Of a DNA stretch of 64,000 bases, positions 45,881 to 49,426 are shown piece by piece. This stretch comes from Devosia naphthalenivorans. GTDB taxonomy: Bacteria > Pseudomonadota > Alphaproteobacteria > Rhizobiales > Devosiaceae. The position numbers and the translations under genes were made by a program. The notes under the pieces are model-generated. The model did no database searches and was not told where the DNA came from. It saw nothing but the letters and a program-made list of their open reading frames with translations. The DNA is taken from contig NZ_PYVW01000008.1 in assembly GCF_003056355.1 (NCBI RefSeq), positions 62,001 through 126,000 on the forward strand, given 5' to 3'. Within the stretch, counting starts at the first letter, position 1. Each line of letters begins with the position of its first letter.

Positions 45881-47763
45881 CCGACCAGACCACCCCACCG
45901 ACCAAATCCGGCCACGAAGTCATCCGCGACTTCGTCCGCACCCTGCCCGCCGCGCCCGGCGTCTATCGCATGCTCGATGCGAATGGCGAGGTCATGTATG
46001 TGGGCAAGGCACGGAACCTGAAGGCCCGCGTCACCAACTACACGCGGCCCGATGGGCTCGAAGTGCGACTGCAGCGCATGATCGCCTCGACGGTCAGCAT
46101 GGAATTCGTGCGCACCGAAACCGAGTCGGACGCGCTGCTGCTCGAAGCCAACATGATCAAGCGCTTGAAGCCCCGCTTCAACGTGCTGCTGCGCGACGAC
46201 AAGAGCTTCCCCTATATCCTGATCGCCACCGATCACGAGGCGCCCGAGCTCACCAAGCATCGTGGCACCCGCCGGAGGCAGGGTCACTATTTCGGCCCCT
46301 TCGCCTCGGCGACCGCTGTGGGCCGGACCATTGCCAGCCTGCAAAAGGCATTCCTGCTCCGCAATTGCTCGGATAGTTTCTACGCCGCCCGCACGAGGCC
46401 GTGCCTGCAGCACCAGATCAAGCGCTGCGCAGCGCCCTGCACGCGTGAAATCTCGCTCGAAGGCTATGCCGAACTGGTCGAGGACGCGCGCCAGTTCCTC
46501 TCCGGCAAGTCGCAAAACGTGCGCGATCATCTGCAGCGGGACATGAACCAGGCCGCCGAGCAACTTGATTTTGAACGGGCTGCGCTTATCCGCGACCGTC
46601 TCTCCGCGTTGGCCCTGATCCAGTCGCAGGGCGACGCCACGGCCAAGACCGTCGAGGAAGCCGACGTTTTCGCCATCCATCACGAGGGCGGGCAATTCTG
46701 CGTTCAGGTGTTCTTTTTCCGCGCCTTCCAGAACTGGGGCAACTATCCCTATCGCCCCCGTGCCGACGCCACCCTGACCGACGTCGAAGTGCTCGAAGCC
46801 TTTATCGGCCAGTTCTACGAGAACCGGACGCCCGCGCGCCTGGTCCTGGTCAGCCACGAGTTGGCCGAGCACGGCGTCATGGAAGAAGCCCTCTCCACCC
46901 GCGCCGGGCGCCGCGTTTACATCGAGCAGCCCAAGCGCGGCGAAAAGCGCGACCTGGTCAATCACGCCCTCAACAATGCGCGCGAGGCGCTTGGCCGCCA
47001 GCTCGCCGAAGGCGCCACCAACCGCATACTGCTCGAAGGCGTCGCCAATTGCTTTGGCCTGGATGAACCGCCCCGCCGCATCGAGGTTTACGACAACTCG
47101 CATATCTCGGGCACCAACGCCGTCGGCGCCATGATCGTGGCGGGCGAGGAAGGCTTTTCGAAAAAGCACTACCGCACCTTCAACATCAAATCCGACATCA
47201 CCGCCGGCGACGATTTCGGCATGATGCGCGAAGTGCTGACCCGCCGCTTCACTCGCCTCGCCAACGAAAACGACGATGAGGTCGAGGACGAAGTGACCGG
47301 CATGCCCGATTGGCCTGACGTTGTTTTCATCGATGGCGGCGCCGGCCAACTCAACGCCGTGCGCGAAGTCATTTCGGCCATGAACCTGCCCAAGGACGTG
47401 ACCTTTATCGGCATCGCCAAGGGCGAGGAGCGTGACGCCGGCCGCGAAAAATTCTTCATGGAGGGCAAGGAAGCCTTCATGCTGCCCCACCGCGATCCGG
47501 TGCTCTACTACGTTCAGCGCCTGCGCGACGAAGCCCACCGCTTCGCCATCGGCACCCACCGTGCCAAGCGCAAGAAGGACCAGATCAAGAACCCGCTCGA
47601 CGAAATCGAGGGCATCGGCCCCACCCGCAAACGCGCCCTGCTCAACCATTTCGGCTCGGCCAAAGCTGTCGGCCGGGCCTCGCTAACCGACCTCAACGCC
47701 GTCCCCGGCATTTCCAGCGCCATGGCGCAACTGGTCTACGATCACTTCAATCGCAGTGGATAG
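45877..47763 (+). CDS. uvrC: UvrABC excinuclease subunit C
   Basis: Dual-incision nuclease of nucleotide excision repair. 628 residues. N-terminal GIY-YIG nuclease ([21 protein letters not shown], about 28-48), cysteine-rich segment ([15 protein letters not shown]), UVR domain that meets UvrB ([13 protein letters not shown]), the RNase-H-like second nuclease ([25 protein letters not shown]) and C-terminal helix-hairpin-helix motifs ([18 protein letters not shown]). Translation is coupled to the SDR gene by ATGA at 45877. Confidence 0.96.
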
Positions 47764-47825: not shown

Positions 47826-48026
47826 TAAATAATCTATCCATCTTCTCCCCCTCCATCTCCCACGCGCTATCTTGCCCCTACCAACTTCACGCCCAGCGGG
47901 TCGCGCGAACCGGCTAGTGTTGTTGTCAGATGGGGCAGGGATGTCGTGATCCCTGCAGGCAAGCGGAAGTGTTACCGGGTCTATGGCGGCCCGGAGCCAG
48001 AGTCGCGCGCGCCAGAAAATCCCATC

Positions 48027-48087
48027 GCATGTGGCGAGGCTCTGTCTCACACACTAAAACCTACCGAGGCAAGGCCTCGCCACGTGC
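48027..48087. other. Inverted repeat upstream of the aroG promoter
   Basis: GCATGTGGCGAGGC (48027-48040) and GCCTCGCCACGTGC (48074-48087), 14 pairs with one T-G, around 33 bases. The gap from 47764 to 48142 has this, a family-5 remnant and no supported gene. Confidence 0.5.
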
Positions 48088-48142
48088 ACGCTGATCAAAA
48101 CCGCATCCAGGCGGCGCGTCGGCACGTCATCCGAAAGTAGGC

Positions 48143-48171
48143 TGGACACTTTGCATCCTCCGCGCTACACA
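48143..48171 (+). promoter_or_regulatory. Promoter of the aroG leader
   Basis: TGGACA (48143-48148) and TACACA (48166-48171), spacer 17. The expected start at about 48178 coincides with the leader-peptide ATG at 48179, so the message would be leaderless, as described for trpL of Sinorhizobium. Confidence 0.65.
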
Positions 48172-48178
48172 TCTGCCC

Positions 48179-48256
48179 ATGATCTCCGTCGCAACCATCT
48201 CGTTTTGGTATTTTAGCTATCCGCTCCCGGCGGAGGCTACCGCGCGCTTGATCTGA
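48179..48256 (+). CDS. Leader peptide of DAHP synthase (aromatic attenuator)
   Basis: ATG to TGA, 25 codons. Residues 9-14 are Phe-Trp-Tyr-Phe-Ser-Tyr (48203-48220), five aromatic codons in six, covering all three products of the shikimate pathway. It lies right before a terminator and the DAHP synthase gene. Such a peptide has no function of its own: ribosome stalling at the aromatic codons tells the RNA to fold into the antiterminator. No ribosome site, which fits initiation on a leaderless transcript. Confidence 0.8.
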   Translation: MISVATISFWYFSYPLPAEATARLI

Positions 48257-48310
48257 TCCTGACAAGATAAGACCAATCCCGAGCCAACCGCCCCCCGAGG
48301 CGGTTTTTTT
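48214..48310 (+). promoter_or_regulatory. Transcription attenuator of aroG
   Basis: Three alternative pairings can be drawn. 1:2 hairpin: TAGC and CCGC (48214-48217, 48221-48224) with GCGG and GCTA (48230-48233, 48236-48239). Antiterminator 2:3: GGCGG (48229-48233) with CCGCC (48288-48292). Terminator 3:4: AACCGCC (48286-48292) with GGCGGTT (48299-48305) and T7 (48304-48310). A ribosome stalled on 48203-48220 would cover strand 1 and free strand 2. Confidence 0.75.
48286..48310 (+). terminator. Attenuator terminator before aroG
   Basis: Seven-pair stem AACCGCC/GGCGGTT with a six-base loop and a run of T, ending 43 bases before the aroG GTG. Confidence 0.85.
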
Positions 48311-48352
48311 GTGGCCGCCTCGCCCTACCCAGATCCCCGAGGAGTCCACACC

Positions 48353-49426
48353 GTGCTTAAATCAACTGACGATCTGCGCATCAGCGCGATTATGGAATTG
48401 ACCACGCCCATCGAGGTCATGCGCCAGCATCCGCGCACCGACGCCGCGACCCGAACCGTGCTTAGCGCCCGTCACGACTTCCACAACATCCTGCAAGGCA
48501 CCGATGACCGCCTCGCCGTCATTGTCGGCCCCTGTTCCATCCACGATCCCGCCGCGGCGCTGGACTACGCCAAGCGCCTCGCCGCGCTGCGTGACACCCT
48601 GGGCGACCGGCTCGAGATCATCATGCGCGTCTACTTCGAAAAGCCGCGCACCACCGTCGGCTGGAAGGGCCTGATCAACGACCCTAACCTCGATGGCAGC
48701 TTCCAGATCGATGTGGGCCTGCACACTGCTCGCGCCCTGCTGCTCGACATCGCCAATATGGGCCTGCCAGCCGCGTGCGAATTCCTCGACATGACGACGC
48801 CGCAATACATCGCCGACCTCGTCAGCTGGGCCGCCATCGGCGCCCGCACCACCGAATCTCAGATCCACCGCGAACTGGCCTCCGGCCTCTCCTGCCCGGT
48901 GGGCTTCAAGAATGGCACCGATGGCAACGTCAAGATTGCGCTCGACGCCGTGCAGTCCGCCAGCCAACCACACCATTTCCTCGCCGTCACCAAGGACGGC
49001 CGCTCGGCTATCGCGGCGACGACGGGCAACGAGGACTGCCACATCATCCTGCGCGGTGGCAAAACCACCAACTACGACGCCGCCAGCATCGATGCCGCAG
49101 CAGCAGCTGCCACCAAGGCGGGCCTTGCCCCTTCGATCATGGTCGACGCCAGCCACGCCAACTCGTCCAAGAACCCGGAGAACCAGCCGCTCGTTCTCGC
49201 CGACATCGGCCGCCAGATGGCTGCCGGTGACCGCCGCATTATTGGGGTCATGATCGAATCCAACCTTGTCGCCGGCCGGCAGGATCTCATCGAAGGCAAG
49301 GAACTCGTCTACGGCCAGTCGATCACCGACGGCTGCATCGATTGGGATACGACGGTTACCACGCTGCAGGCTCTTGCGGACGCCGTAACCGAACGGCGCC
49401 TGGCCACCACCCAGCAGGTCGCCTGA
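48353..49426 (+). CDS. aroG: 3-Deoxy-7-phosphoheptulonate (DAHP) synthase, type I alpha
   Basis: First enzyme of the shikimate pathway: condenses phosphoenolpyruvate and erythrose 4-phosphate. 357 residues of the AroG/AroF/AroH type. Metal-ligand Cys in VIVGPCSIHDPAAAL; substrate loops EKPRTTVGWKGLINDP, GFKNGTDGN and VDASHANSSKNPENQ; N-terminal extension (LRISAIMELTTPIEVMRQHP) typical for allosteric type I alpha enzymes. Which aromatic acid inhibits it cannot be read; the leader has Phe, Trp and Tyr codons. GTG start at 48353 with GAGGAG eight bases upstream. Confidence 0.94.
   Translation: MLKSTDDLRISAIMELTTPIEVMRQHPRTDAATRTVLSARHDFHNILQGTDDRLAVIVGPCSIHDPAAALDYAKRLAALRDTLGDRLEIIMRVYFEKPRTTVGWKGLINDPNLDGSFQIDVGLHTARALLLDIANMGLPAACEFLDMTTPQYIADLVSWAAIGARTTESQIHRELASGLSCPVGFKNGTDGNVKIALDAVQSASQPHHFLAVTKDGRSAIAATTGNEDCHIILRGGKTTNYDAASIDAAAAAATKAGLAPSIMVDASHANSSKNPENQPLVLADIGRQMAAGDRRIIGVMIESNLVAGRQDLIEGKELVYGQSITDGCIDWDTTVTTLQALADAVTERRLATTQQVA

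Follow-up and report, generated by a model that had tools for sequence, protein, structure and literature searches.

An attenuator in front of a DAHP synthase gene, the aroR-aroF system of Corynebacterium glutamicum, was reportedly described by Neshat in 2014. The accessible portions of two papers present it as acting through a leader with a Phe-Tyr-Phe run (PMC4046766, PMC11802643). In Acholeplasma, the short frame uORFC-13-1 before aroF has been proposed as an attenuator with Phe codons (PMC8632094, available excerpt), and in the gammaproteobacterium Shewanella regulatory RNAs have been predicted before aroF and aroH, the aroF entry being given, in the excerpted text, as an attenuator that senses tyr-tRNA, with reference to an E. 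coli study of 1980 (PMC2659441). Since attenuation at DAHP synthase genes has, according to these excerpts, been published or proposed in Corynebacterium, Acholeplasma and Shewanella, this kind of control is already known. In E. coli, the first step of aromatic synthesis is controlled by the repressors TyrR and TrpR (PMC5343134, in part). In the alphaproteobacteria, the Sinorhizobium meliloti trpL leader (peTrpL, rnTrpL) is, as far as the accessible text of two reports goes, a leaderless ORF whose transcript starts at the ATG (PMC7298713, PMC10117765).

The locus described here lies in a 64,000-nucleotide stretch of Devosia naphthalenivorans DNA, which was analysed whole and is called the window below. 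Its aroG gene is very probably controlled in cis by ribosome-mediated transcription attenuation in response to a shortage of Phe, Tyr or Trp. Like C. glutamicum aroR, the window's leader places a row of aromatic codons ahead of a DAHP synthase gene; the actinobacterial run is Phe-Tyr-Phe, with Trp unmentioned in the excerpts available, and the likeness is one of layout. S. meliloti trpL also has an alphaproteobacterial host, and its leaderless leader ORF and terminated attenuator RNA have predicted counterparts in the window; our covariance model R1 weakly detects Trp-run leaders before trpE-like genes; the S. meliloti leader, as excerpted, has a Trp run before trpE(G), whereas that of the window has F, W and Y before aroG. 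The Acholeplasma frame is likewise a proposed uORF attenuator upstream of a DAHP synthase gene, but the partial source places it in another phylum, with a ribosome binding site and Phe codons. The Shewanella entries concern gammaproteobacterial DAHP synthase genes and are compared by the excerpt's description, without leader sequence. E. coli trpL and pheL also have stall codons over strand 1 and a folding profile that falls after the sensing codons, but each senses one amino acid and precedes other genes.

An aroG leader of the window's type is absent from the accessible portions of PMC2965389, PMC4117421, PMC10117765, PMC1262725 and PMC5343134. No prior description of such a leader was found in a search that covered subscription journals thinly, so that an earlier one is possible. 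The mechanism is an ordinary one; its widespread setting is apparently undescribed, and a run sensing three amino acids would be unusual. The ilv and thr attenuators already provide cases of a leader whose codons stand for several members of an amino acid family.

Anatomy of the leader and its target gene

The leader ORF (48179-48256, plus strand) encodes the 25-residue peptide MISVATISFWYFSYPLPAEATARLI. Its putative sensing codons, TTT TGG TAT TTT AGC TAT at 48203-48220 on the plus strand, specify Phe-Trp-Tyr-Phe-Ser-Tyr (F48203, W48206, Y48209, F48212, S48215, Y48218). When ATG-started ORFs of 12-60 aa on both strands of the window were scanned, the leader alone among 428 had at least five F/W/Y in six codons; any such ORF arose in four of 100 dinucleotide-shuffled versions of the window. 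Phe is encoded by TTT 96 times and by TTC 15 times in Devosia-type leaders, and by TTT never and TTC six times in the window's aroG; going by the codon use of this one gene, sensing might be sharpened by slower decoding of TTT. Leader peptides compared with curated models matched no family (seven against NCBIfam, five against Pfam). Across the window there were no Rfam matches at gathering score, and three sub-threshold matches lie within 48100-48400. A sub-threshold match to RNAI (18.6 bits against 47) was dismissed as chance.

The 1:2 hairpin, or anti-antiterminator, spans 48214-48239 on the plus strand and pairs 48214-48218 with 48235-48239 and 48220-48225 with 48229-48234. Antiterminator strand 2 (GGCGG-A-GGCT, 48229-48238, plus strand) can pair instead with strand 3 (48282-48292, plus strand), which consists of AGCC at 48282-48285, paired in the antiterminator only, and CCGCC at 48288-48292, paired in either the antiterminator or the terminator. 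The intrinsic terminator (3:4; 48286-48310, plus strand) has a stem of 48286-48292 with 48299-48305, followed by T residues at 48306-48310, and was also picked up by a terminator scanner, which reported two sites on both strands of 47900-48500 against a mean of 0.4 in shuffles. Beyond it lies aroG (48353-49426, plus strand), a type I DAHP synthase gene of 357 aa with a GTG start, whose product matches PF00793 (E 2.6e-92) and TIGR00034 (520.9 bits, cut-off 173.2).

The initial annotation had placed a 25-codon frame with this codon run ahead of an intrinsic terminator and a DAHP synthase gene. That observation is confirmed: coordinates and codons agree, as do the sequence and the scanner for the terminator, and the GTG start at 48353 and the two family matches for the gene. 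The annotation had also drawn three mutually exclusive pairings, and these stems can form, but its five-pair antiterminator is one of nine pairs, with GGCT (48235-48238) and AGCC (48282-48285) added to GGCGG/CCGCC.

Upstream, an ORF on the same strand as the leader ends at 47763 and is presumably uvrC. A second terminator-like hairpin occurs at 48065-48079 on the minus strand, in the opposite orientation. A type II DAHP synthase gene is also present in the window's genome (L119, G000:C23:328737-330050). No aromatic run was found before that gene, trpE or pheA in the upstream stretches examined, which comprised at most 350 bases before each open frame and part of the sequence up to the true start.

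Conservation and distribution

The 118 aroG loci compared come from a whole-genome search of 61 relatives, 38 of which matched, and from a contig scan of which the best 80 of 591 were kept, so that the set is biased to near relatives. All but one of them, 117 loci, have an aromatic leader ORF upstream; the scan found 113, and inspection by eye added four of Rhizobium type in which the run is looser. The exception, L063, sits on a cut contig with 157 bases upstream, where a terminator-like end is still visible. Duplicates (the upstream sequences of L034, L036 and L040 equal those of L012, L018 and L023, while L062 and L117 are one and the same contig) reduce the set to 114 distinct loci. Leader and terminator were parsed in 112 of these, the ATG-only parser having dropped L063 (short contig) and L097 (ORF running too near aroG). 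A hairpin followed by a T run is present in all 112, a count made without shuffle control.

Phe, Trp and Tyr all occur within an eight-codon run in 47 of 47 parsed Devosia-type loci (36 distinct peptides) and in 38 of 65 others; among the remaining 27, Trp occurs only outside the run in three and not at all in 24. The codon after Trp in the 47 Devosia-type loci is TAT in 30, TAC in 11 and TTT in six. Aromatic runs recur in the alpha, beta and gamma classes, and they persist where stem sequences are altered (L041-L044 and L026, L029, L114, L115). The initial annotation had proposed conservation of the codon run and covariation of the stems as checks, and loss of either codons or alternative stems in close relatives as evidence against its reading. 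Relatives near and far retain the aromatic codons, and alternative stems can be drawn in them as well.

Covariation has fared less well. In an alignment of 68 alphaproteobacterial sequences (A1), scored against structures that were derived from the window itself, a choice in their favour, 75.3% of cells are paired in the 1:2 stem, 86.3% in 2:3 and 97.5% in 3:4, each more than in all 500 shuffles, and in 8 of the 68 rows both bases of one terminator G-C pair are exchanged to give A-U. The covariation score of 1:2 in A1 (0.065) does not exceed that of shuffles (0.071); that of 2:3 (0.019) was reached by 16 of 500 shuffles and is surpassed (0.031) when the structure is displaced by -3 columns. 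Covariation is thin because the stem cores hardly vary. Pairing energies were compared at 54 non-redundant loci: a locus's own strands 2 and 3 pair at a mean of -16.7 kcal/mol, against -12.4 with strand 2 shuffled (Wilcoxon p 1.1e-10) and -15.4 with the strand 3 of other loci (p 0.006).

Wider samples delimit the element. Among 144 genomes of the class, counting that of the window, TIGR00034 matched in 13, weakly in eight and above its cut-off in five, and a leader was found at all five of these above-cut-off loci; in one of the five (L121) the run has F and Y only. Across the phylum, 141 of 249 genomes have a match over the cut-off, and reading 90 upstream stretches hand-picked among the matches listed (60 fetched, 30 from the listing) revealed a leader in 33, including 15 of 15 fetched stretches from the window's order. 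In four genomes of family f163 for which two aroG copies were read, one of the two has a leader, and the leader is absent from the AroG types of most genomes examined in families f169, f160, f161, f173, f193 and f158. Aromatic ORFs of L133, L136, L138, L180, L186, L212, L218 and L221 reached the scan threshold but on visual inspection were not accepted as leaders.

On a quickly built AroG tree with 111 rows, L063 being labelled leader-bearing although its contig is cut, the leader label requires one change, against an average of 21.1 in shuffles, and support for the leader branch itself is weak (30%). The window's neighbours on this tree, like the named loci, point to Devosia as its genus. The samples and the tree tie the leader to one AroG lineage, not to DAHP synthase at large. 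The anatomy of the sequence, its conservation and its link to aroG are the observed part of the attenuator reading. On the same tree, the aroG and leader of L046, a record titled Mycobacterium sp. KBS0706, group with Inquilinus; the title may be wrong.

Stalling model and competing explanations

Transcription would begin at or next to the leader ATG, and we infer that the leader is translated, without a Shine-Dalgarno site. When charged Phe, Trp and Tyr tRNAs are plentiful, the ribosome would reach the stop codon, the 1:2 hairpin would hold strand 2, and the terminator would form before aroG. With any one of the three in short supply, the ribosome would stall within F-W-Y-F-S-Y and cover strand 1; strand 2 would then pair with strand 3 ahead of the synthesis of strand 4, and the polymerase would continue into aroG.

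Equilibrium folding of the full leader under a ribosome block failed to separate these states, with the terminator winning, and in the window's full transcript the terminator wins at equilibrium at every ribosome position; the switch therefore has to be kinetic, a matter of timing. The model adopted once this result was known folds the nascent RNA at a point where strand 4 has yet to be transcribed. Its ribosome masks the 16 bases that precede the first base of the A-site codon and the 11 that follow it. In the window, the model's antiterminator pairing (strand 3 with upstream sequence) is 0.77-0.87 with the A site on any codon of the run (0.86 at Trp), 0.17-0.33 on later codons, 0.15-0.65 on codons before the run and 0.40 without a ribosome. 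The positive controls behave similarly, E. coli trpL giving 0.83 at WW and 0.05 at the stop codon, and pheL falling from 0.71-0.86 at its Phe codons to 0.04 at the stop. That pairing depends on where the ribosome stalls is thus a computed result, and the overlap of stall codons with strand 1 that the initial annotation described is reproduced, likewise by computation, in both pairing and stalling models.

Across loci, pairing is higher on the aromatic codons than on those after them in 111 of 112 cases (53 of 54 non-redundant) and higher than at the stop codon in 95 of 112 (44 of 54), leaving 10 of 54 non-redundant loci with no drop from aromatic codons to stop. Compared with the codons that precede it, the run has higher pairing in 38 of 47 Devosia-type loci, but in only 30 of 53 non-redundant loci. 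The model marks where stalling stops helping; in many relatives an earlier stall would, by the same computation, also help. This poor separation of the run from earlier codons very slightly lowered our confidence in attenuation, which remains high. Codon conservation, the alternative stems in relatives and the stalling model together support the attenuator proposed at the outset.

Which amino acids are sensed is a separate matter. The near-equal computed effect of a stall on Phe, Trp or Tyr in the window is the basis for three-way sensing, and we infer from the codons and the model that the leader would respond to each. It is possible, if rather unlikely, that the attenuator is real and senses mainly one or two amino acids, such as Phe and Tyr, the Trp codon being incidental: Trp is missing from the run of 27 of 65 leaders outside Devosia, 24 of which have none, and the Phe-Tyr-Phe leader of C. 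glutamicum aroR acts under Phe limitation, according to the available excerpts (PMC11802643, PMC4046766). Retention of the Trp codon in the run of every Devosia-type locus (47 of 47) argues against this, as do the value of 0.86 for a stall on that codon and the lack of another Trp attenuator in the stretches examined before trpE and pheA of the window's genome.

Control by a riboswitch or a leader-binding protein, with the ORF a by-product and no role for ribosome stalling, would suit both the highly conserved sequence of the antiterminator core and the preference of equilibrium folding for the terminator throughout. It is nevertheless very improbable, since no Rfam family reaches gathering score and the sub-threshold matches look like chance, the Tyr codon after Trp varies between TAT (30) and TAC (11), with TTT in 6 of 47, and the aromatic codons stay in place where the stems differ (the eight loci named above). 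A terminator belonging to the 3' end of the upstream gene, with the leader ORF a chance reading, is disfavoured to the point of being scarcely credible; the same-strand ORF ending at 47763 speaks for it, but conserved promoter-like elements lie in between, and the aromatic run recurs in three classes of proteobacteria, whereas a chance run appears in 4 of 100 shuffled windows.

If aroG is attenuated by ribosome stalling, an RNA switch would act on the first step of aromatic synthesis in alphaproteobacteria and, through related leaders, in beta- and gammaproteobacteria with the same AroG lineage. One leader with codons for all three aromatic amino acids makes multi-amino-acid sensing directly testable, and with the RNA model and leader sequences annotators could mark the element in many genomes. 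By analogy with rnTrpL/peTrpL, the leaderless RNA of some 130 bases that termination would leave might have a second role, both as a free small RNA and as a small messenger, a doubtful proposition at present. Action in trans is established for S. meliloti trpL in the accessible text (PMC7298713, PMC10117765), and the Devosia leader is linked to it by analogy alone. Were it true, one RNA would combine information on the supply of Phe, Tyr and Trp where the pathway begins and relay it to other genes.

Promoter-like elements and further matches of the model

A -35 element (TGGACA, 48143-48148, plus strand; TCGACA or GTGACA in many relatives) and, 17 nucleotides on, a -10 element (TACACA, 48166-48171, plus strand) predict a transcript start at or next to 48179. 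Relatives were searched for a GAC...TA pair with TA 20-24 nt beyond GAC and 11-17 nt before the leader ATG, the latter range having been fixed after the alignment had been inspected. The pair is present in 45 of 46 Devosia-type and all 31 other alphaproteobacterial loci (76 of 77 in all), and in these 76 the TA stands 12-16 nt ahead of the ATG; the pair occurs in 2% of base-shuffled upstream stretches. An E. coli-type promoter scan of 47900-48500 returned no site, and support for the promoter is therefore one of conservation, not of consensus strength. The TGGACA-N17-TACACA promoter of the initial annotation is accordingly present in the sequence, with near-constant spacing in relatives, but it is not a site that such a scan recovers.

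A Shine-Dalgarno-like sequence precedes the leader in 2 of 77 alphaproteobacterial loci and the aroG start in 101 of 112 loci. Together with the promoter-like pairs, this suggests that in alphaproteobacteria transcription begins on or beside the leader ATG and that the leader is leaderless, a layout which, if confirmed, would reach beyond trpL. The claim is restricted to that class because, among 34 beta- and gammaproteobacterial loci, seven have the pair at alphaproteobacterial spacing, 26 have a TA at a distance of 11-17 nt upstream of the ATG, and nine have a Shine-Dalgarno-like sequence. In a group from the Oxalobacteraceae or near them (L082, L095, L099, L102, L103), TTATAGT-like -10 elements were noted by eye, some 20-40 bases before the ATG, as if the start there were leadered, not leaderless.

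The model R1 was searched in 397 genomes of the order, with eight candidates scored per genome under strict filters. Many of these genomes or their close kin had fed R1, so that their own matches were expected. Of 60 matches below 1e-8, 59 are followed by aroG: it comes next on the same strand in 30 loci and in 19 further fetched stretches, and 10 matches lie just before listed TIGR00034 matches. The sixtieth, L258 (G719:C48:62504-62632; E 5.9e-19), is a decayed leader, MITVATRRFWHFTHRNSLAAGGSC, with no aroG within the 1.6 kb read downstream; its genome has another leader copy before aroG elsewhere.

Twenty matches that were odd or weak were fetched for inspection and comprise this one decayed copy, eight Trp-run leaders before trpE-like genes (trpE identity checked with NCBIfam in one of the eight), three Tyr-rich leaders before tyrS-like genes and eight with no recognisable leader. 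At 30 tyrS loci of relatives, the window's own included, an aromatic ORF upstream is absent in 27; those at the other loci, L298, L302 and L305, were not judged to be leaders. The three Tyr-rich cases (L263, L264, L265), from other genera of the order, have leader ORFs such as MIKTAATFVYFYYVTSIPAAA and MITSVYYYASHIPAACVRSCS, a terminator-like hairpin and a tyrS-like gene. The tyrS pieces score 115 and 94.6 bits, where 113.8 is the cut-off set for whole proteins. The three cases represent a possible tyrosine attenuator of tyrosyl-tRNA synthetase.
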